NCBI GenBank assembly: GCA_002171615.1
Contig: NHEF01000008.1
Span: 1-55,889 of the forward strand
Reading direction: 5' to 3'
DNA length: 55,889 nt
Source: Gammaproteobacteria bacterium TMED78
GTDB taxonomy: Bacteria; Pseudomonadota; Gammaproteobacteria; Steroidobacterales; Rariloculaceae
Shown here: positions 24,889-51,218 of the stretch, piece after piece
Layout of the letters: every line of letters starts with the position of its first letter
How positions within the stretch are numbered: the stretch's first letter is position 1
Program-made: the position numbers and the translations under genes
Notes under the pieces: generated by a model
What the model saw: only the letters and a program-made list of their open reading frames with translations
Databases searched by the model: none
Told to the model about the DNA's origin: nothing

Positions 24889-26040
24889 CTAAAGACGTCT
24901 TAAAAAATCTTGATCATTCTCAGATAAAGTTCGATCATCACAATTGTATGGTTCATATGGTAAATCAGAAACAAATACACTATCAGATCCCTTATACTGC
25001 CCGATAAAATTTTTCGGGTCAGTTGCAATCCAAGTTCTTCGTAATTGACCTAAATCATGATCTAAAGAAAAGGTTTCAACAACATGCATCTCATCGCTGT
25101 ACATGAAAGGCACGAACAAATAACCAGGATCAAATCCTATTGTATCAACAATTAAATTTGAATCAACCCACTTACCGATAGAGTGTCCCCATTGCGAAGC
25201 CTCTAAATCAGAAGGATGACTATCTAGGTTCATATAAATTTTTCTATACAAATCGAAAGAACCATACTTAATTATAATTTGATCATCCACAAGTGATATT
25301 TGATTAGTCATTGAATCAAAAGTCCAATCAAAGAAAATATTTGTTGGCGAGCAATGCCACCTTGGCATATCTCTTTCATAATCAAAATCCTCAGCTGAAT
25401 CTAACATTGCCTGAGTAGGTTCAATGCCAATACCTGGCGGTAAGCCCATACCCATGCCCGAGCCCATAGCTCTACCCATACCAAGATAATTTTGATTAGG
25501 GGCTATACCTTGCTGATACAAACTTAAGGCCTCACTCAAAAGGACTAGCTCACCTCTTCTTCCTCTAGGGTCTGTACCAATTCTTTGCTCAGCCGCCCAA
25601 TCACCAAAAATATTAGGTGTTCCATCTATTAAGGTTGCTGGTCTATTAGTAGAAATAGAGCTTTGTTGTGTAAGTTGTTGATATCTATCAATAGACGTTC
25701 CATCTGCAAATCTTACTGTTGCAACATAACATGTATTAGGCTCCTCTCTATCAGGAATACCTTCAACAGTTATAGCTCTTCCATCTAAAAAAATCTCTTC
25801 TGTCCAACCAGATCGTCTGAGAACAGTAGCAGCCCTCATTTCACACCTCCAAGGCTCAACCACATCTTCATCATCACGAATGGCATCTAAATATACAAAT
25901 GCATGAGGATTAACCATTGCTATATCGGTAACTATTCCCGTCAGTACTAAATCTATAGTGGGGTCAAATGTACCCATTCCATGATGAGAATAAGCATTTA
26001 AAGAAATTAAAGAAGAAAATATAAAGAAAAAATACTTAAT
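24889..26040 (-). CDS. Exported DUF6152-type two-domain protein, probable ATT start
   Basis: The nearest ATG (25977) would begin inside the conserved N-terminus. The frame upstream encodes a signal peptide, KYFFFIFSSLISLNAYS, followed by HHGMGTFD, exactly as in its paralogues. ATT 26040 follows GAGGAG by 7 bases and is the best start, giving 383 residues. The N-terminal domain has NPH (VNPHAFVYLD) and a CEMRAATVLRRSGW block. The C-terminal domain starts near FGDWAAEQR, has a Cys in RWHCSPTN and GHSIGKWVDSNLIVDT, and ends with a second Cys (YNCDD). A Met/Gly-rich insert lies between the domains. It heads the 2-oxoacid dehydrogenase operon. Function unknown. Confidence 0.8.
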   Translation of the reverse strand: MKYFFFIFSSLISLNAYSHHGMGTFDPTIDLVLTGIVTDIAMVNPHAFVYLDAIRDDEDVVEPWRCEMRAATVLRRSGWTEEIFLDGRAITVEGIPDREEPNTCYVATVRFADGTSIDRYQQLTQQSSISTNRPATLIDGTPNIFGDWAAEQRIGTDPRGRRGELVLLSEALSLYQQGIAPNQNYLGMGRAMGSGMGMGLPPGIGIEPTQAMLDSAEDFDYERDMPRWHCSPTNIFFDWTFDSMTNQISLVDDQIIIKYGSFDLYRKIYMNLDSHPSDLEASQWGHSIGKWVDSNLIVDTIGFDPGYLFVPFMYSDEMHVVETFSLDHDLGQLRRTWIATDPKNFIGQYKGSDSVFVSDLPYEPYNCDDRTLSENDQDFLRRL

Positions 26041-26047
26041 TTTGTCT

Positions 26048-26053
26048 CTCCTC
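26048..26053 (-). promoter_or_regulatory. Strong Shine-Dalgarno in front of the ATT start
   Basis: GAGGAG on the minus strand, 7 bases before ATT 26040. No ATG, GTG or TTG lies in the matching window and frame, so the site points at ATT as the start codon of the DUF6152-type gene. Confidence 0.65.
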
Positions 26054-26191
26054 TGGACAATTTTTAATATTATACATTAAAAATACTTACTATATTAATT
26101 TTAAAGCTAACAGAAATAGAATTAATCATTTAAACTTTTACCTAAATTATGATATATATTTATTTACAAATTTCTTAAAATTGGAGTAATA

Positions 26192-27211
26192 ATGAGAATG
26201 CATCTATTTTTAATTTTATTATTAATATCTCCCACTATGAGCTATAGTCACCACTCCTTTAGTAGCACATTTCATACTAATCTCTTTATCGAAATAGAAG
26301 GAGAAATTACTAGGATCCTTTGGCGTAATCCACATGTAATGTTTATGGTTGATGTAACAGATGAAAACGGTGAAACATCTGAATGGGAAGTTGAAGCAAA
26401 CTCTTTAAGCCTCCTTAGAAGAGCAGAAATTTCAAGAGAGATGATTAATATAGGTGATAATGTAAAGATTTCTGGATGGCCTTCTAGATACCATGATACA
26501 GAGATGTTTGTTCAAAATATGTTACTTCCCTCAGGACAAGAAATTTTATGGTGGTTAGCATCAAAACCAATCTGGTCAAATGATACACTTGGTAATTGGG
26601 ATGAGTGGAGAACAGATGGTGGAAATACTAATGATAATAGGGAAAATGGGATTTTCGGCATATGGACTTCAAACTTTCTTTCAAGAAATGGTGGACTGTG
26701 GAATGAAAGCTATCCATTAACAGAATTTGCTTCTAATGCGAGAAACCAATATGACCCTGGCTCATCTAATAATCCTCTGCTGAACTGCCAGCCCAAAGGA
26801 ATGCCTTTTATTATGGAACAACCCTATCCATCTCAATTTATTGACATGGGAGATATAATTATTTGGCATGCTGAGGAGTACGATACTATGAGAGTCATCT
26901 ATATGGATCTAAATAATATTCCTGATGAGCCTGATAATCCAATATTAGGAATATCAACTGGACAATGGGATGGTAATAACTTAGTAGTAAGTACTAATAA
27001 TATTAACTATAGCGTCTTTGATCCTACAGGCATACCATTAACTAAAAGCGTGTCATTAGTAGAGCGTTTTATTCCTACTGATAATGGAAATAGGATAATT
27101 TACGAAGTAGATGTAACTGATCCTGGTGTATTCACTGAAACTATAACTTTAGATTCCACATGGACTAGAGCATCTGATCAAACGGTTGGAAATTATGAAT
27201 GTACCATCTAA
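26192..27211 (+). CDS. Exported DUF6152-type two-domain protein
   Basis: The 339-residue protein has a signal peptide ending TMSYS, then His20-His21 at the predicted mature N-terminus (HHSFSSTF). The N-terminal domain shows WRNPHVMFMVDV, EWEVEANSLSLLRR and GDNVKISGWP. The C-terminal domain begins near FGIWTSNF and contains NCQPKGMPFIMEQPYP, AEEYDTMRVIYMD, ISTGQWDGNNLVVST and a last Cys in NYECTI. ATG 26192 has GGAG upstream. It forms a tandem pair with the next gene and is divergent from the ATT-start paralogue. The function of DUF6152 proteins is not established. Confidence 0.85.
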   Translation: MRMHLFLILLLISPTMSYSHHSFSSTFHTNLFIEIEGEITRILWRNPHVMFMVDVTDENGETSEWEVEANSLSLLRRAEISREMINIGDNVKISGWPSRYHDTEMFVQNMLLPSGQEILWWLASKPIWSNDTLGNWDEWRTDGGNTNDNRENGIFGIWTSNFLSRNGGLWNESYPLTEFASNARNQYDPGSSNNPLLNCQPKGMPFIMEQPYPSQFIDMGDIIIWHAEEYDTMRVIYMDLNNIPDEPDNPILGISTGQWDGNNLVVSTNNINYSVFDPTGIPLTKSVSLVERFIPTDNGNRIIYEVDVTDPGVFTETITLDSTWTRASDQTVGNYECTI

Positions 27212-27226: not shown

Positions 27227-28240
27227 ATGATAAAAATCTTAATTAAAATTACTATATTGGCTATGCTTGGTCTAATTACTTTAAATGCTTTTGCTCACCA
27301 TGCTTTTAATAGCATATATGATGTAAATAACTTTTCTGTAATTAACGGCACAATCGAAAAAGTAATGTGGAAAAACCCACATGCTCAACTGACCATTACA
27401 ACCGATAGTGGTGATTCCTGGCATATCGAAACTAACTCAATAAGCATTTTGAAAAGAATGGGAGTTGATGATAATTTACTTTTAGTTGGTGATAGAATTT
27501 CTATAGCTGGTTATAAAAGAAGAGATGGTAAGTTATCTATGTGGACTAATAATATCCTCTTGTCTAATGATCAGGAAGTAATATTACGTCCTGGTATAGA
27601 GTCATTTTGGAATGATAGTGCATTATCTAGTTCTGAATCCTGGTTATCTAATGGTGACACCGGAGGGGAAGAGCAAGGTATTTTTAGAGTATGGAGTACT
27701 AGGTTTAACGGTCCAGGTAGATATATGAGGCTCCCCAATCCTCCATTAACTGAATCAGCATTAGTTAAGTATAATTCATATAATCCACTAGTAGATGATC
27801 CAACACTTAACTGCAACCCAAAAGGTATGCCATGGATAATGCATCAACCCTATCCTACTGAATTTAGGCAGGGAGAAAATAAAATATATTTTCATATTGA
27901 AGAATATGACCTTATTAGAGTAATACATATGGAACAAAATATAGAAGCCGAAGAAAGAACCTTGTTAGGTCACTCAACTGGAAAATGGGATGGAGACGAC
28001 TTGTTAGTAGAAACTACTCATGTCAACTGGCATCAATTTGATAATACTGGTATCCCTATATCAGATAATGCTACTTTTGAAGAAAGGTTTTCACTGAGTA
28101 GTGATGGTAGTGAACTTAATTACACCATCAAAACTACTGATCTATTAACATTTAATGAGGTTATTATACAAAATAAGCAATTCGTCTGGAGAGAAGATGT
28201 GACTATTGATCCATACATCTGTACAAATTATGATGGTTGA
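27227..28240 (+). CDS. Exported DUF6152-type two-domain protein (tandem paralogue)
   Basis: This 337-residue protein is a clear paralogue of its upstream neighbour. It has a signal peptide ending TLNAFA, then His24-His25 (HHAFNSIYD), WKNPHAQLTI, WHIETNSISILKRMG, a domain junction near FRVWSTRF, NCNPKGMPWIMHQPYPTEF, EEYDLIRVIHME, GHSTGKWDGDDLLVET and a terminal Cys (DPYICTN). It starts 15 bases after the preceding stop, so the pair is probably one transcript. The two share the same domain order and length and probably arose by tandem duplication followed by strong divergence. Confidence 0.85.
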   Translation: MIKILIKITILAMLGLITLNAFAHHAFNSIYDVNNFSVINGTIEKVMWKNPHAQLTITTDSGDSWHIETNSISILKRMGVDDNLLLVGDRISIAGYKRRDGKLSMWTNNILLSNDQEVILRPGIESFWNDSALSSSESWLSNGDTGGEEQGIFRVWSTRFNGPGRYMRLPNPPLTESALVKYNSYNPLVDDPTLNCNPKGMPWIMHQPYPTEFRQGENKIYFHIEEYDLIRVIHMEQNIEAEERTLLGHSTGKWDGDDLLVETTHVNWHQFDNTGIPISDNATFEERFSLSSDGSELNYTIKTTDLLTFNEVIIQNKQFVWREDVTIDPYICTNYDG

Positions 28241-38566: not shown

Positions 38567-40210
38567 CTACCTCTTTATAATTCCAATTTTATTTGCATGT
38601 TGATCAAACTTTGACACCAGGTCTATCAGCTTATTTCTATTAAGAAGAGCAATATTATTTAGCTCTTTAGGGTCATTAGCTAAATTATATAATTGCCACT
38701 CATCCTCGCCTTGTATTCGAAGTATCTTCCAGTCACCCTCTGTTAACCAACTGTATCCAGAATGATCTAAAGCTATTGCTTCATTAGCTTTATGAACTTG
38801 AAATTCACTATTGTCAATAAGTGTAGCAAATGATTTGCCCCGAATTGGAAGAGCATCTTTTTTAGTTAAATTAATACTATTTTCATCAATATTTGCTAGA
38901 TCAAGAATTGTTGGCAAAATATCCATTACCGTTAGCATAGAGTTGCTAACCGTGCCTTGGCTATTAGAATTAGGAGGCGAAATGAAAGCAGCTACTCTTA
39001 TTCCTCCCTCATAGTTTCTCCCCTTATCACCTCTATATGGAGCTGAAAGAGCATCTGCCCAGCCTTGATCATTAGTTACCCAGCTATTTCTATTGCCTAA
39101 GTTACTAATAGAATTATCAAACCTTGATAATTTACTTCTATTATCAAACATTGGTCCAGCATCAGGGCCATTATCATTATGATAAATAATATATGTATTT
39201 TCTAACTGCCCTGTTTCTTCTAAATAGCTTAATAGCCTTCCAACCTCGCTATCTAGATGAGCAACCATGGCCGCATAAAGTTCCATAGTCCTACTATGAA
39301 TAGCTCTTTCATCATCGGATAGCTCACTCCAGGGTTTGGCTATTTCAGGGCACGAGCTAAACTCTAAGCCTTGTGGTAAAACACCTGCTAATGATGCCCA
39401 TTGTTGGCGCTGCCTACATAAAATATCGTAGCCTTCGTCATACAAGCCAATAAATTTATCTTTCCATTCAGGAAGGAGCTGTAAGGGCCAATGAGGTGCA
39501 GTTGGCGCTAACCATGCAAAAAAGGGTCTTCCATCAGCCTCATTTGATTTTAAATAACTTATCATTTTATCGATATATGCTGTTGTAGAATAAAAATCAT
39601 CGGGTATATCATCATGACTTAGCATCCTGCCATCTTCTGAATATGGGACTTCAGCGACTCCTCTTCCTACACGTGGTAGCTCTTCACCAGGTAGTAACTT
39701 AAAATGATCAAAGCCTCCAGGCATAAGTGCAAAACTTCGTTCAAAACCTCTATTCCCAGGTAATGTACCAAGGTCACTTTCAGATGCTAAATGCCACTTA
39801 CCAGCCATATAGGTATGATAGCCTTCAGCTAATAACCTCTCAGGAAGGGTTGCTACACGATAAGCAATATGAGATTCATAACCAGGCATGTCTTTAAAAG
39901 CATCAGTCATTTGTTGTGAACCCATTCCAGCCTCATGATTACCTGTGCCAGAAAGTAACATTGCTCTAGTTGGCGCACAGCTTACATTAGCATGAAAATT
40001 TGTTAGCCTAATACCCTGCATAGCAAGCATATCTAGATTAGGAGTAGGTATGTCATGACCGCCGAAAGCACCAAGATCTGTGAAACCCATATCGTCAGTT
40101 GTAATAAGTAGAAAGTTAGGTCTTTTATCTTCAGCAACTTTTACAAAATTATTTGTTGATGAACAACCGCATAAAACAAATATAGTAAAAAAAACAATCA
40201 ATCTAGACAT
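38567..40210 (-). CDS. Sulfatase, predicted lipoprotein (arylsulfatase-like)
   Basis: The 547-residue sulfatase carries a lipobox signal (FVLCGC), metal-site LLITTDDMGFTDLG, Cys78 in SCAPTRAMLLSG for formylglycine, YMAGKWHL, HNDNGPDAGPM and RGDKGRNYEGGIRV. The sequence resembles the AslA/arylsulfatase group. As a lipoprotein it would sit on the outer membrane, unlike the two neighbouring sulfatases, which have ordinary signal peptides. It overlaps no gene but is only 3 bases from the next stop, within a four-gene operon. Confidence 0.92.
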   Translation of the reverse strand: MSRLIVFFTIFVLCGCSSTNNFVKVAEDKRPNFLLITTDDMGFTDLGAFGGHDIPTPNLDMLAMQGIRLTNFHANVSCAPTRAMLLSGTGNHEAGMGSQQMTDAFKDMPGYESHIAYRVATLPERLLAEGYHTYMAGKWHLASESDLGTLPGNRGFERSFALMPGGFDHFKLLPGEELPRVGRGVAEVPYSEDGRMLSHDDIPDDFYSTTAYIDKMISYLKSNEADGRPFFAWLAPTAPHWPLQLLPEWKDKFIGLYDEGYDILCRQRQQWASLAGVLPQGLEFSSCPEIAKPWSELSDDERAIHSRTMELYAAMVAHLDSEVGRLLSYLEETGQLENTYIIYHNDNGPDAGPMFDNRSKLSRFDNSISNLGNRNSWVTNDQGWADALSAPYRGDKGRNYEGGIRVAAFISPPNSNSQGTVSNSMLTVMDILPTILDLANIDENSINLTKKDALPIRGKSFATLIDNSEFQVHKANEAIALDHSGYSWLTEGDWKILRIQGEDEWQLYNLANDPKELNNIALLNRNKLIDLVSKFDQHANKIGIIKR

Positions 40211-40213
40211 AAG

Positions 40214-41713
40214 TTAATTCCTTGGATAATAAATTCTATTTAATTCAATCATAGGATTATAATAAACTTTATTTCCATTTCTATTTATTGAAGGAGTTCT
40301 TGGCTTCGAGAAATCATAAGATGTATTTATTGCTGGGATATCGGCATTAATGCTTTTTAAATATGTATCAAGAATAATCTCAAGCTCCGCCGCCTTATTG
40401 GGAAAAGTCGATATTAAATTATTTTTTTCACCTATATCTTCGACAATATTAAATAAGACAGTTTTGTTTATTTCATAATACTTAATCAATTTATAGTCAT
40501 CTAAAAATATTGCTGACTGTGGGGATCCATCTTGATAATGTGGGAAGTGAAAAACTAATTCTTCTTTAATTCTATTTATTTCACCAATGCCGTTATTCTC
40601 AAGTATTGAAGCAATACTTCCACCCTCAATATTTTTAGGTAATTCTTGTTTATCTATACCCGCCCATTCTGCAAAAGTAGGGAATAAATCGTACCCGACT
40701 GCTTGTGTATGAGACCAAGAATTTTTATTTATACCTGGACCTTTAATAATAAATGGAACTCTTATCCCTCCCTCAGAAACATTACCTTTTGCGCCAGTTA
40801 GAGCTGCATGCTCTTCTCTATTGATACAAACCTCTGTAAATGAGCAGTTACTATTGTGTTCGTAGGCACGCTGGCCATTATCACCCATATATATAATATA
40901 GGTGTTGTCAGAAAGATTTAACTCTTCAATGCCATCCAAAATAACCCCAACCCCTGAATCAAGATCTTCTGTAATTGCTGCAACTAAATAATCATGGTGA
41001 ATTAGCCCAATAGGTCTTTGCTTAACTTTTTTGATAGTCAACGGTGAGGCCTCTTGCTGCTCATGAAGTGGATAGTAAGATATCTGAATAAAAAATGGTC
41101 TTCCTTCTTCACTCGAACGTTTCATAAAATCTAGTGCTCTCTGTGACATACCATATACGTCTAGAGGGTTATCTGAGCTAGTAATATCATAAGCATTACC
41201 ATTACTAGTATCTCCATCACTTTCTGTATACCCATGAAGCTCAGGCCCGCCTCCAGAAATATGCCATTTACCATAATGTGCAGTCATATAACCTTTAGAC
41301 TGAAGAACTTCTCCAATAGTTATCTCATCCTCTAGTATTGCTCTTCTATGAGGAATAGGAACCATAGGGAAATTTCTTTCTGCGGTTATTGTTGGTGCAG
41401 CTTTTGTCCATTTATTTTTAGCTGGACTAATTCCAGTTTGTAAACTAATTCTTGTTGGTGCACAAACAGAACTTGGTGAATAGAAAGCAGAAAATCTCAT
41501 TCCTTGTGCAGCTAGCTCTTCTAGCCTTGGTGTATAATAAAGATCACTTTTAGAGCTATCCACATCTGGATGCATTTGGACTGACAGGCCATCCCAACCC
41601 TGATCATCAGATAGCATTAAAACAATATTAGGTGCACCAATGGATATATTAAAAAAAAAGAAAAGGGGTAATAATGTAAATAGTAATTTAATATACCTTG
41701 GAAGAAGTATCAT
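40214..41713 (-). CDS. Secreted sulfatase
   Basis: The 499-residue protein has a signal peptide (ending NISIGA), LMLSDDQGWDG, Cys84 in SVCAPTRISLQTG, AHYGKWHISGGGPELHGY and MGDNGQRAYEHN. It is the first gene of the minus-strand sulfatase-sulfatase-tannase-sulfatase operon. FGE or anSME maturation enzyme genes, required to make formylglycine, are not found in the window. The substrate is not evident. Confidence 0.92.
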   Translation of the reverse strand: MILLPRYIKLLFTLLPLFFFFNISIGAPNIVLMLSDDQGWDGLSVQMHPDVDSSKSDLYYTPRLEELAAQGMRFSAFYSPSSVCAPTRISLQTGISPAKNKWTKAAPTITAERNFPMVPIPHRRAILEDEITIGEVLQSKGYMTAHYGKWHISGGGPELHGYTESDGDTSNGNAYDITSSDNPLDVYGMSQRALDFMKRSSEEGRPFFIQISYYPLHEQQEASPLTIKKVKQRPIGLIHHDYLVAAITEDLDSGVGVILDGIEELNLSDNTYIIYMGDNGQRAYEHNSNCSFTEVCINREEHAALTGAKGNVSEGGIRVPFIIKGPGINKNSWSHTQAVGYDLFPTFAEWAGIDKQELPKNIEGGSIASILENNGIGEINRIKEELVFHFPHYQDGSPQSAIFLDDYKLIKYYEINKTVLFNIVEDIGEKNNLISTFPNKAAELEIILDTYLKSINADIPAINTSYDFSKPRTPSINRNGNKVYYNPMIELNRIYYPRN

Positions 41714-43214: not shown

Positions 43215-44258
43215 TTAACCTCTATCTGGCAGGTAGCACTCAGTATCAGCAAACTCATAGTCATTAATTCTTAATTTTCTCCAGCCGCCTTTCCATGGGG
43301 CAGAAAGGTTCACTGGGTCAGTATAGGTAATATCTACAGAAAGTGCTGAATTCTCATCATCATCTGCACGACTATATCTTTCCACTATTGTAGTTTGATC
43401 ACTTAGAATGTTTCCTCGTCCATTTACAGGAGAGGCAAGCAAGTTACTAGTTTCAACTACGAATGCATCTCCATCATAATAGCCAGTTGAATGACCTAAT
43501 ATTGTATGCTCACTACTACTAGGAGCCCTGTCATCGAGATAGATAAGACGCTGAGAGTTATTTGTTTCCTGAGCAATAATGACATAATCCTCTCTTTGGG
43601 TAACTCTAACTGACTGAATCGCATCTATCACTCTGATTGTTCCCTGTGTTGCACATTCAGTATAAGCAGGGTCTTGCGTTGGGTCCCAATTATTTTGCAA
43701 AGCTTGTCCAATATCAGAAAATTGTGGAGTAGTTCTGATATTTAAATCGGACCCACCAGCTATTGCTAAGTAAGTTCCATTGAGATTAGGAAGTCCATTA
43801 CTAAGCTTAAGAGGAGGAACATCAACATCTGGAGTCTGATCAGGCTTAGGCCCTTCTAGCACTCGTATAAGTGAACCATCATTTGGATCAATCTCTAGAA
43901 GGCGTCCACCATTAATATCAGGATTCTCAATTAGAATCATTGGTCCTCCATGCCTTGACTTTCTACCAACGAGTCTTACGTACTGCCCTGGCTCAATCAT
44001 CTCAGCTGTCCATCCCCATCTTCTAAATCCTGCAACAGCAGGAGCAGTTGCAGTCCACTCTACTAACTCTCGATCTTCATTAAGAACATCAAGTTTAATA
44101 GTTATGTGAGGATTCCTAAAACTAAACTCCCTAACAAACCCCTCAATCTCCATATCTAAGTCAACATCAAAAGTAGCTGTTGCTGCATGATGAGCATTAA
44201 GCGTAAATGCAAATAATGCTGAGAATAAAAATAATATTAAAAGATTGAGGGTTTTCAT
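43215..44258 (-). CDS. Exported DUF6152-type two-domain protein
   Basis: The 347-residue protein has a signal peptide ending FTLNA, then His23-His24 (HHAATATFD). The N-terminal domain shows FRNPHITIKLDV, EWTATAPAVAGFRRWGW and PGQYVRLVGRKSRHGG. The C-terminal domain starts near NLNGTYLAIAGG, has a Cys in YTECATQG, QRLIYLDDRAP, LGHSTGYYDGDAFVVET and a last Cys (DTECYLP). ATG 44258 has AGGAG upstream. It follows a GlcG/HbpS-like gene by 21 bases and probably shares its transcript. Confidence 0.86.
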   Translation of the reverse strand: MKTLNLLILFLFSALFAFTLNAHHAATATFDVDLDMEIEGFVREFSFRNPHITIKLDVLNEDRELVEWTATAPAVAGFRRWGWTAEMIEPGQYVRLVGRKSRHGGPMILIENPDINGGRLLEIDPNDGSLIRVLEGPKPDQTPDVDVPPLKLSNGLPNLNGTYLAIAGGSDLNIRTTPQFSDIGQALQNNWDPTQDPAYTECATQGTIRVIDAIQSVRVTQREDYVIIAQETNNSQRLIYLDDRAPSSSEHTILGHSTGYYDGDAFVVETSNLLASPVNGRGNILSDQTTIVERYSRADDDENSALSVDITYTDPVNLSAPWKGGWRKLRINDYEFADTECYLPDRG

Positions 44259-44933: not shown

Positions 44934-45929
44934 CTACTCTCCAGGGATGCATCCATACTCATATAGCTGAAGATGTGGGGTATAAAGCATCTCAAGTCGA
45001 CCAGTAAACGGCTCTATTAAAAAATCTGGATCTTCAACAATTACATCTACAATAGCTCGTGTGCCATCATTATTTAAAGAATAACGCTCAACTACATGCT
45101 TATTATAACCTGACGGTATGCCAATTCCGTTTCCAGAGTTAAACTTATCAAACAATTGAGTGTCAACTACCAGTGTTTCACCTTCCCACCATCCAATAGA
45201 GTGACCTTGAATGGTCCTTTCAGTATCTTCTGGATGACCTCTTCCATCCATATAAACTACCCTCTTAAGATCGAAAAATTCATTACGTAAAATAGCATAA
45301 TCCTGAAAGACCTCTATACCGCTTAAATAATTAACACTCCCAATAGTAAAAGGTGTTGGGTGAGGAATACATGATAGATCTGATGCAGCATTTGGCTGGT
45401 CGGGTGATATAGGATTACCTAAAAGATCATTAAATCTATCTCTTGCTTCAAGTGCTGCTGTAGTTAATCTGGCATCCACAAATTGCCTTCTTATGTTTGT
45501 ATGTGATAACGCCTTCCAAACGCCTTCAATGCTAGTGGCACTTTCCGTAGCTTCTAGATCTCCTTCAACTTGTGACCACAAATTACCATCGCTAGTCTCT
45601 AGTGTATTAAGGATAGCTCGATTTCGACCATTCTTTTCAGGGTGTGCCCTAATAGTAATTACATCACCAGGCTTTAATAAAGATGATGACCATCCACTTC
45701 TGATCATAATTGGAACAGATCCAGTTTCAATCTCCCATTCTTCTATATCGGCTTCATTATTGTTAGCTTCAACAAAAATCATAACGTGTGGATTACGAAA
45801 GGTGTATTGAGTTACTACAGCCTCAAACGCAACTAATCTCTCAAAATCATATATAGCATCACTATGGTGAGCAACAATAGGAGTTGCTAAAAAAAATATT
45901 AGAGATAGAATAGGTTTGTTTAGATGCAT
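44934..45929 (-). CDS. Exported DUF6152-type two-domain protein
   Basis: The 331-residue protein has a 20-residue signal peptide and His21-His22 at the predicted mature N-terminus (VAHHSDAIYDF). Visible blocks are FRNPHVMIFVEA, EEWEIETGSVPIMIRSGW, KPGDVITIRAHP, EGVWKALSH at the domain junction, SCIPHPTPF, KRVVYMDGRGHP and IQGHSIGWWEGETLVVDT; it ends with a second Cys (YEYGCIPGE). It is third in a minus-strand run starting at 47.2 kb. The 186 bases before the next gene (44747) are AT-rich and show nothing I can name. Confidence 0.86.
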   Translation of the reverse strand: MHLNKPILSLIFFLATPIVAHHSDAIYDFERLVAFEAVVTQYTFRNPHVMIFVEANNNEADIEEWEIETGSVPIMIRSGWSSSLLKPGDVITIRAHPEKNGRNRAILNTLETSDGNLWSQVEGDLEATESATSIEGVWKALSHTNIRRQFVDARLTTAALEARDRFNDLLGNPISPDQPNAASDLSCIPHPTPFTIGSVNYLSGIEVFQDYAILRNEFFDLKRVVYMDGRGHPEDTERTIQGHSIGWWEGETLVVDTQLFDKFNSGNGIGIPSGYNKHVVERYSLNNDGTRAIVDVIVEDPDFLIEPFTGRLEMLYTPHLQLYEYGCIPGE

Positions 45930-45966: not shown

Positions 45967-46443
45967 TTAGCAATCATAAGTGAAGCAGAAGTCGCGTTGC
46001 TTACGAAACTCATCTAATTTTGTTTGAATATATCTTGTACGTTCAGCAAACTGACCATTACCCCCTCCAACCTCAACACCATCAGAGTTTGTTATAAAAA
46101 TCCATTCAACTAAATTATAGCCAAACCTTGAAGGTCGACCTAAAATCTGAATATGATCACCAGGCTTAAACTGATCATCAGTCCAGTCAGCTCTTCGAAG
46201 ATTAATAATACTGTCACCTTCACTCATCCATTTTTCTGTCTCTCCTTCATCATTTATAACATCAAAATAAATTCTTGAATGAGGATTAGCTGCTATAAAT
46301 TCAGTCACTACACCATTAATCTCAATACGTTCATCAACTAAATAATGTGCTGCAGGATTATGATGAGCAATGATAGGCATAGAAAGAGATATTAAGATTA
46401 CAACAGATAATGCTAAGCTCTTGATATAGTATTTGATTCTCAT
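45967..46443 (-). CDS. Stand-alone DUF6152 domain protein (exported)
   Basis: This 158-residue protein contains only the N-terminal domain of the family. It has a signal peptide ending SMPIIA, His27-His28 (HHNPAAHYLV), ANPHSRIYFDV, EKWMSEGDSIINLRRADW and KPGDHIQILGRPSRFGYN. ATG 46443 is chosen: it leaves 1 base after the upstream stop, while ATG 46482 would overlap that gene and damage the signal peptide. Its missing C-terminal partner domain is encoded by the gene just upstream. Confidence 0.85.
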   Translation of the reverse strand: MRIKYYIKSLALSVVILISLSMPIIAHHNPAAHYLVDERIEINGVVTEFIAANPHSRIYFDVINDEGETEKWMSEGDSIINLRRADWTDDQFKPGDHIQILGRPSRFGYNLVEWIFITNSDGVEVGGGNGQFAERTRYIQTKLDEFRKQRDFCFTYDC

Positions 46444-46444
46444 T

Positions 46445-47236
46445 TTACATCTCACCAGAAATTGTCTCACAAGGCGCATCAAGTAGATCTGCTTCTGGGG
46501 TAAAGATCCTAGTTCGCTCTAAAACCAACGGCTCTAGAAACATCACAGGATCTATTAGCGTAAACTGACCATGTAAACGAGTGCCATCTCCATTAAGCGT
46601 ATATCGCTCAATAAATCGAGCATTATCTGCATGATGGATATTAAGTGTATCGTCAGCTATAGCGGCTGAAATGTTTATAGTATCTATCACTAATGATGAT
46701 CCTTCATACCAGCCAATTGAATGACCCAAGGCAGATAAGGACCCGTTTTCTGGATGATTACGACCATCCATATAAATTATCCGATCTGAAGCTAAATCTT
46801 CTGGCAAGATCAATGTTTGGTCTTGAGCTTGCTGAATTAAAATTGGATCATTATGAAGAACAGTCCTTACTATACCAAATTTCTCACATTGAATGGACGG
46901 ATCATCTGCGGGATCATAGCTTGAAAGATAATCTATTTTATCCTGTGTAAATATCTCAGCAATAGCAATATCATTATGATCATTTACAGCATCCTCTATC
47001 TCCTGAGCTGATAAATGATCATTCTCTGGAAGCAACAACTCACGAAGATAACTATAGGTTTCTGAGGTGCAATTGCACGAGAATAGCTCTTCAATAGTCC
47101 AATAAGGGTGCTCAAAAAAAGTTTCAGTTGTACTCCAGATGCCATCAATATCTGGCGTTGAGCTTTGTGATGCTGCAATTTGCATACAGAACAATAAGCC
47201 TGAAATAGTAAATATATGTTTAAGAATTTTCTTCAT
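46445..47236 (-). CDS. Stand-alone C-terminal-type domain of the DUF6152 fusion family (exported)
   Basis: The 263-residue protein has a signal peptide (ending MQIAAS) and then DIDGIWSTTETF. It lacks the NPH/DUF6152 domain but matches the C-terminal half of the two-domain paralogues: a Cys in SIQCEKFGIV, DRIIYMDGRNHPENG, ALGHSIGWYEGSSLVIDT, ERYTLNGDGTRLHG, LIDPVMFLEPL and a last Cys in DAPCETISG. It additionally has a Cys pair (SCNCTSE) near residue 54. It is first in the minus-strand run, followed at 1 base by the stand-alone DUF6152 gene. Confidence 0.8.
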   Translation of the reverse strand: MKKILKHIFTISGLLFCMQIAASQSSTPDIDGIWSTTETFFEHPYWTIEELFSCNCTSETYSYLRELLLPENDHLSAQEIEDAVNDHNDIAIAEIFTQDKIDYLSSYDPADDPSIQCEKFGIVRTVLHNDPILIQQAQDQTLILPEDLASDRIIYMDGRNHPENGSLSALGHSIGWYEGSSLVIDTINISAAIADDTLNIHHADNARFIERYTLNGDGTRLHGQFTLIDPVMFLEPLVLERTRIFTPEADLLDAPCETISGEM

Positions 47237-49781: not shown

Positions 49782-51218
49782 TTATTGGCCGTTACGTAAC
49801 TCTATGATCTGCTTCTTCAGCGATTCATAATTACTCACTAGATCAGGAACTTCTAGATCAGTAATTAGTAAATTATTATGCTCATAGGGGTCATTATGAA
49901 GATCATAAAATTCTTCTTTATTGTTATTCCTTAGGAGCTTATAACGATTATTTCGCATAGCATAGTTTTCTACTGTATCGCCAGAAGAGACATCATAGAA
50001 ATAGTCAGCATATATCCAATCACGCGGTGATTTTGTATTAACATTTTTAAGCACTGGCATAAAACTGATAGAGTCATGAATAATGTTCTCAGGTATAGTT
50101 GTTTGTAAATTAATTCCAGCCATCTCCATAATTGTCACGAAAAGGTCTGTAGAGTTAATAAGTGCATCTGAAACAGTGCCGGATTCAACTTGTGGACCAA
50201 CAATAATCATTGGAGTATTCACTCCTCCTTGATAAATAGTACCTTTAGCCTTATTACTGCTAAATGGCGGTTGTACATTAGACCTTGCGGTTCCATTATC
50301 ACTAAGGAAAATTATATACGTGTTCTTTAGAACATTAGGCTCCATTGATGCAATTAGCCTTCCAATCTGTGTATCCATTGATTCTATCATTGCATTAAAA
50401 TATTTAGCTCTATGAGACACATCAATTACTTTAGAGTCTAGACTTGAGTAATCAGATTGCCAATTGTCTTTAGGAGGCAAGTGCATTGGAGCATGAGCTT
50501 GGTTAAAGGCAAGCCACATAAACCATGGTTTATCGCCCTGCTCTAATATCCATTCAATAGCGTCATTTGTTTTATCTTCGGGCACATAACCAGTTTTACC
50601 AGATACCTCTCCATTAATAATTTTATTCCATGAAAAATAATGCCTTGGCCCCCCATCCATTAATCCAGAAAAATGATCAAAACCAGCTTGATTTGGGTGA
50701 TCAACTCCTCCATTAGAAATATCAGCAAGGTGCCACTTACCTATAGCAGCGGTGGAATAATTTAGATTTGGGCTATCTTTAAAAGCCATAGGTAAGGTAT
50801 ATTCCTCTTCCAGTAAACCATGCTGGGGAATAAAGTTAGGAGGGTAACCACCACCAGCCATAACCCGAGGTGAGCCAGGGGCTGGTGAGGCCCATTCTGG
50901 AACCTCAGGATTTTCTGGTAAATTTAAACTTGGAAAGACAGCGAAGCCGATATTGGTTCGAAAACTATACCGACCAGTAATAAGCGTTGCTCTAGTGGGA
51001 GAGCATACTGGCTGTGACCAAAAATTTTTAAAACTCATGCCTTGATCAGCCATTTGATCAAGAGTAGGTGTTTTTGCCGAGCTCTCACCTACACCAAAAG
51101 AAGAGAGAACTTCGATACCTACATCATCAGCAATAATTAATAAAATGTTAGGAGAGGCTTGGACTGTCATCGAGATAATGGTTAATAATAATACAATTGA
51201 CAATTTAAAGCTTTGCAT
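49782..51218 (-). CDS. Secreted sulfatase
   Basis: The 478-residue type I sulfatase has a signal peptide (ending TVQA), LLIIADDVGIEV, Cys72 in PVCSPTRATLITG for formylglycine, AIGKWHLADISNGG and LSDNGTARSN. It is the last gene of a minus-strand run behind ribokinase (12 bases). Its presence beside ribokinase suggests that a sulfated sugar is the natural substrate of this sub-locus. It is convergent with the transporter gene. Confidence 0.92.
   Translation of the reverse strand: MQSFKLSIVLLLTIISMTVQASPNILLIIADDVGIEVLSSFGVGESSAKTPTLDQMADQGMSFKNFWSQPVCSPTRATLITGRYSFRTNIGFAVFPSLNLPENPEVPEWASPAPGSPRVMAGGGYPPNFIPQHGLLEEEYTLPMAFKDSPNLNYSTAAIGKWHLADISNGGVDHPNQAGFDHFSGLMDGGPRHYFSWNKIINGEVSGKTGYVPEDKTNDAIEWILEQGDKPWFMWLAFNQAHAPMHLPPKDNWQSDYSSLDSKVIDVSHRAKYFNAMIESMDTQIGRLIASMEPNVLKNTYIIFLSDNGTARSNVQPPFSSNKAKGTIYQGGVNTPMIIVGPQVESGTVSDALINSTDLFVTIMEMAGINLQTTIPENIIHDSISFMPVLKNVNTKSPRDWIYADYFYDVSSGDTVENYAMRNNRYKLLRNNNKEEFYDLHNDPYEHNNLLITDLEVPDLVSNYESLKKQIIELRNGQ

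Follow-up and report, generated by a model that had tools for sequence, protein, structure and literature searches.

VtrA/VtrC and ToxR/ToxS are paired bile-sensing periplasmic proteins (PMC4933562, PMC10624426) and serve here as a working analogy only for a locus in which two neighbouring genes may give rise to one calycin-like periplasmic ligand-binding module. A second point of reference is provided by metalloproteins with an N-terminal histidine. The copper histidine brace of LPMO and CopC is recognised by a histidine at the mature N-terminus combined with another histidine (PMC10952591), and signal strapping has identified other metal proteins of this kind, namely DUF4198, DUF6702 and the anglerases, with no mention of PF19649 or of an OB-fold (PMC12537917). 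PF19649 is the Pfam model of DUF6152, a domain without an assigned function. Our literature search found no description of the domain that is fused or adjacent to DUF6152 (here termed the C-domain) or of a His-His mature N-terminus in DUF6152, and a search on DUF6152 or Candidatus Rariloculus found no paper on the subject.

We analysed a window of 55,889 nucleotides, positions 1 to 55,889 of contig NHEF01000008.1 of Gammaproteobacteria bacterium TMED78, which encodes five proteins with an N-terminal DUF6152 domain fused to a C-domain and one pair of genes, C46 and N45, that carry the same two domains separately (Table 1). The original prediction placed a C-domain gene ahead of a DUF6152 gene at one base distance, each with its own signal peptide, and its coordinates, strand and gap proved exact: the TAA stop of C46 ends at 46445, base 46444 is an A and the ATG of N45 begins at 46443. 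Both signal peptides were recovered by rule-based prediction. With a GGTGAG located inside the last part of C46, the two genes may be translationally coupled. One of the fused paralogues is irregular at its start; within 24889-26064 of the minus strand its ATG gives a product without a signal peptide while the open frame runs on upstream, and this extension spans a signal peptide and HH and contains no ATG, GTG or TTG, suggesting an ATT start after GGAGAG.

Table 1. Features of the split pair, the fused paralogues of the window, and arrays of single-domain genes (N, DUF6152 gene; C, C-domain gene)
Feature	Position or locus	Strand	Remarks
C46, stand-alone C-domain gene	46445..47236	(-)	263 aa; signal peptide; predicted calycin (lipocalin/FABP-like) barrel
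C46 Gly-x-Trp	47135..47143	(-)	residues 32-34, first barrel strand
C46 Cys117	46886..46888	(-)	invariant in C-domain alignment
C46 Cys256	46469-46471	(-)	putative disulfide partner of Cys117
GGTGAG	46451..46456	(-)	possible Shine-Dalgarno of N45, within C46 end; read from sequence
N45, stand-alone DUF6152 (PF19649) gene	45967..46443	(-)	158 aa; signal peptide, then directly His-His
N45 His-His codons	46360..46365	(-)	residues 27-28, predicted start of mature protein
N45 Asn-Pro-His (NPH)	46279..46287	(-)	residues 53-55
N45 C-terminal tail	45994..46068	(-)	GGGNGQ..ER.R....L.E.R.QR
Fused paralogue	44934..45929	(-)	immediately follows the pair; structural model built
Fused paralogue	43215..44258	(-)	belongs to the subgroup that trees place as sister to the split pair
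Fused paralogue	24889..25977	(-)	true start further upstream; HH and signal peptide encoded within about 25977-26064
Fused paralogue	26192..27211	(+)	
Fused paralogue	27227..28240	(+)	
C>N, this genome	C46/N45 pair; L051		
C>N>C and N>C, this genome	L046 (both)		
N>C, this genome	L045, L049		
N>N>fused>C>C, this genome	L044		
C>N, other class	L066, L067, L081, L082		
C>N>N>C, other class	L064, L065		
N>C, other class	L083, L084, L085, L090, L091, L092		
Divergent, other class	L086, L093		

Membership of both proteins in the fused family was established by direct comparison. N45 matches DUF6152 with 71.3 bits (E=7e-20), above the curated Pfam cut-off of 27 bits, and the N-terminal halves of the five window fusions are members by the same cut-off (45-82 bits); N45 aligns with these halves at E-values from 1e-19 to 1e-7. 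C46 gave no PF19649 match in the Pfam search and matched no Pfam or NCBIfam family. Detectable homology between C46 and the C-terminal halves of the fusions was the point on which the original prediction hinged, and BLASTP finds it in all five, the best being the half encoded at 44934-45929 (E=8e-24, 36% identity over 129 aa), followed by the other four at E=8e-16, 1e-14, 4e-13 and 6e-9.

Conservation of the pair was followed in related genomes. Orthologues of C46 with 45-72% identity were found in other members of this family, Candidatus Rariloculus versatilis among them, and they are followed on their own strand by an N45 orthologue, always in the C-then-N order, in 21/21 contexts from 15 other genomes, counting those that are intact and not cut by a contig end. 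The outer flanking genes vary, with at least 10 distinct neighbourhoods among 22 pairs, the window's included. Six genomes each carry two such pairs that form two subclades, and the two genes have thus been duplicated together. The trees of the two partners mirror each other, and their distance matrices correlate with r=0.89, a value reached by 0/5000 permutations. Together these data show joint inheritance with adjacency maintained, which is not by itself proof of contact, and they support the retention of both halves as one unit. The same data bear on the explanation that C46 and N45 are functionally unrelated and lie side by side by chance or through operon inertia after a recent split. The one-base spacing, taken from the window alone, could indeed be recent, but adjacency persists at the protein divergence given above and across all of these neighbourhoods, and each partner carries a conserved extra segment: the C-terminal tail of N45 is kept in the pair's DUF6152 proteins and shared by no other DUF6152 protein of TMED78, and C46 has a pair-specific helical region. 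Chance adjacency is ruled out by the conserved contexts with differing flanks, and we consider unrelated function of the two neighbours very improbable. The view of the C46/N45 halves as cooperating exported modules is well supported by this conservation.

The pair is part of a large family. The TMED78 genome (1.57 Mb, 28 contigs) contains 47 copies of DUF6152 and 43 of the C-domain, which by reading frame are distributed over 32 fused genes, 15 genes with DUF6152 alone and 11 with the C-domain alone, such that about 58 genes of this genome belong to one exported DUF6152/C-domain family. Searches with C46 in further genomes of this family returned up to >100 first-look C-domain candidates per genome, and essentially none in sampled genomes of the order's other families. 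An alignment of the five fusions in the window showed too much divergence to serve for scanning the genome collection. Tandem fused copies are present in the window and in relatives. The single-domain genes of TMED78 form seven arrays with direct N/C adjacency; random placement of the 15 and 11 genes among ~1,500 would, by our estimate, yield ~0.2 adjacencies. Both gene orders occur among these arrays, and the reversed order is therefore not special to C46/N45. The split form described by the original prediction is real but not exceptional, being one of seven arrays in this genome; a split arrangement as something exceptional is ruled out by these arrays and by its being the rule in another class.

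Outside this family, DUF6152 was found in about a tenth of the genomes of a phylum sample, usually as one short stand-alone gene. Two families (f51/f52) of another class, most likely Alphaproteobacteria by the GTDB class list, differ in that nearly every DUF6152 gene of the HHS or HHA type adjoins a separate C-domain gene. A further DUF6152 subtype with the mature start HHGW or similar is present in many Pseudomonadota (L069-L080, L089), and no C-domain neighbour was found at its 13 loci within the ~1.5 kb of sequence read to the left and right. As separate neighbours are ordinary in the other class, in both orders, separate genes look older than the fusion, and we take separate neighbouring genes to be probably ancestral and the fused form derived. 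The survey of genomes for split and fused pairs that had been proposed with the prediction finds the same two domains fused in some cases and as separate neighbours in others, and the existence of fused, N-then-C and C-then-N arrangements supports the view of the halves as separable modules. Domain splitting as a general account of these genes does not hold, given the ordinary and probably older separate neighbours of the other class, and the observation made on C46/N45 is older and more general than was originally stated.

Trees of the concatenated domains were used to place the individual pairs. Three split arrays of this genome (two in L046 and one in L049) group with the distant pairs of the other class. 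The C46/N45 clade, with support of 100/100, is located inside the fused radiation as sister to the 43215-44258 fused subgroup, with UFBoot/SH-aLRT values of 98/89 in a data set of 71 rows and 99/91 in one of 121 rows. Trees built separately from the N- and C-domains both place the pair beside that same subgroup. From these topologies C46/N45 is likely, though not proven, to be a secondary split from a fused ancestor, and it is for this pair, and perhaps two other arrays, that splitting in the sense of the original prediction is favoured. The competing account is that C46/N45 was never fused and represents an ancestral separate-gene pair, drawn into the fused radiation by an artefact of tree building. 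Separate neighbours, C-then-N order included, are the rule in the f51/f52 genomes, three other split arrays of TMED78 group with them, and placement of C46/N45 with the never-fused pairs was not rejected in AU tests (p=0.158, 0.154 and 0.066). Against it, each half independently falls beside the same fused subgroup and the concatenated support for that grouping is 98-99, and we regard a never-fused origin as possible though rather doubtful.

A single clade of all fused genes was rejected (AU p=0.036, in a smaller data set). The closest relative of the fused gene L133:1381-2517, which looks like an independent fusion, is a split N>C pair of TMED78 (L046 17473-18625; 100/100). Rejection of one fused clade and the proximity of L133 to a split pair indicate that switching between fused and split forms occurred more than once. 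The pair in L046, separate here and with its orthologue L133 fused in a relative, is a Rosetta-Stone case, that is, the same two domains fused, and encoded as neighbouring genes, in related genomes. The C46/N45 family differs from usual Rosetta-Stone pairs by the presence of both orders and by repeated switching within one genome's large paralogous family.

Profile searches of PDB sequences gave no match to a solved structure that stands, and no Pfam or NCBIfam assignment that stands was found for the C-domain in distant relatives. The AlphaFold2 model of C46, built from 31 sequences, has a mean pLDDT of 89 and a pTM of 0.84, and its best PDB matches are CRABP, FABP and NanoLuc (Foldseek probability 1.00, E=4e-3; by VIA, Z 8.9 and rmsd 4.8 Å over 123 residues). 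Because this Foldseek E-value is weak, homology of the C46 barrel is argued from fold and not from sequence. The fused protein at 44934-45929 was modelled with a pLDDT of 82, and its C-terminal half gives by VIA a Z of 9.5 and an rmsd of 2.8 Å over 114 residues. In these models the C-domain is a calycin-type (lipocalin/FABP-like) barrel, an up-and-down beta-barrel sharing with CRABP, FABP and the lipocalins the conserved Gly-x-Trp on strand 1, helices between strands 1 and 2 and at least eight further strands. It departs from them in being bacterial and exported, in its invariant cysteine pair and in the greater size of the helical part that separates strand 1 from strand 2, which in C46 is the pair-specific segment mentioned above. 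A disulfide between Cys117 and Cys256 of C46 is probable. Many charged residues are conserved in the barrel domain (Arg152, Glu146, Glu210 and Asp229) and are a poor fit to a purely hydrophobic ligand. A barrel of the VtrA/VtrC type is built from both proteins, whereas the whole barrel is predicted from C46 alone and its partner is an OB-fold.

This assignment of the partner comes from the N-terminal half of the 44934-45929 model, whose Foldseek matches include OB-folds such as the single-stranded DNA-binding protein Rim1 (probability 1.00) and the OB domain of LysRS; DUF6152 is in these models an OB-fold, and a weak DUF4131 match of N45 is in line with it. His-His directly follows a signal-peptidase-type residue in 46/46 DUF6152 copies of the genome read from their start, with Ala (23), Ser (20), Gly (2) or Thr (1) at position -1 and a nearly always small or aliphatic residue at -3, which by the -3/-1 rule predicts histidine as the first mature residue. 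The 47th copy (24889-25977) displays the pattern once its start is moved upstream. Orthologues of N45 and all distant DUF6152 proteins read show the same pattern, which in the distant proteins is A-x-A followed by HH. Further into the protein, Pro-His is found in 47/47 copies of the genome and NPH in 45/47. A His-His after the predicted cleavage site combined with a later Pro-His has the appearance of an N-terminal-histidine metal site, and DUF6152 may bind metal. The likeness to the described N-terminal-histidine metalloproteins consists of the histidine predicted immediately after signal peptidase cleavage and another conserved histidine, and the differences are the predicted OB-fold scaffold and the two consecutive N-terminal histidines.

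The genomic surroundings of the family in TMED78 are mixed. A Pfam census of neighbours identified no dominant pathway; sulfatases, which are among the commonest neighbour families, TRAP binding proteins, amidohydrolases and genes of the metallo-beta-lactamase fold number 3-4 each. Sulfatase-like genes with a C-x-P-T-R motif in their translations lie near the family's genes at 38567-41713 and 49782-51218 of the minus strand. Association with TonB receptors in this genome (4/15 within 2.5 kb, 6/15 within 4.5 kb) was not above chance (p=0.13-0.21), and no PQQ dehydrogenase was found near family genes, the one such gene being >30 kb from the nearest copy. In the other class, a PQQ-type dehydrogenase lies beside or near the pair in 5/12 neighbourhoods (L096, L097, L098, L099, L104), and two of these dehydrogenases carry a cytochrome c domain. 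Two arrays of that class, both C>N>N>C (L094, L095), are directly behind a TonB-dependent receptor gene, and L094 is then followed by a cytochrome b561-YceI fusion. The other-class neighbourhoods suggest a periplasmic substrate-handling role with no substrate named.

These neighbourhoods can be accommodated by a ligand-binding or solute-delivery pair without metal chemistry, in which the barrel would shuttle a hydrophobic compound in the periplasm, the OB protein would be a docking or adaptor subunit and His-His would serve processing or folding. The calycin fold, the TonB-receptor and PQQ-type dehydrogenase neighbours in the other class and the TRAP solute-binding proteins in TMED78 all agree with such a shuttle. 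If the cleavage-site His-His and Pro-His had no chemical role, however, their full conservation would be difficult to account for, and the proximity to TonB receptors in this genome does not exceed chance, which leaves this a plausible but somewhat unlikely account.

We hold with middling confidence that C46 and N45 instead form an exported two-module device, a ligand barrel with an OB module that perhaps carries a metal, split from a fused form. The two proteins would be subunits of a periplasmic device that elsewhere in the genome is one fused chain. The C-module would hold a small, probably hydrophobic ligand in its barrel, with paralogues differing in ligand, and DUF6152 would coordinate a transition metal through its N-terminal histidine, the metal being bound or delivered or acting on the ligand in the barrel. 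The chains of the split form may dock non-covalently, perhaps via the helical region of C46 and the tail of N45. Its history would run from separate neighbouring genes to fusion and then, for C46/N45, to a renewed split, in which a fused gene was duplicated in tandem, the first copy then losing its N-half and the second its C-half; such losses would leave C before N with a signal peptide on each.

More broadly, DUF6152 and the barrel may represent a large unrecognised class of exported metalloproteins, in which an OB-fold His-His metal site and a substrate-holding calycin barrel, in cis or in trans, have been expanded to tens or >100 paralogues per genome in one gammaproteobacterial family as a periplasmic toolbox of receptors or metal-dependent enzymes for a range of small molecules, a proposal that we consider speculative and on balance unlikely. 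The occurrence of both fused and split forms indicates one functional unit made of two halves. C46/N45 provides a clean minimal pair for expression, and the His-His terminus and barrel fold turn an unassigned function into two direct questions, namely which metal and which ligand.
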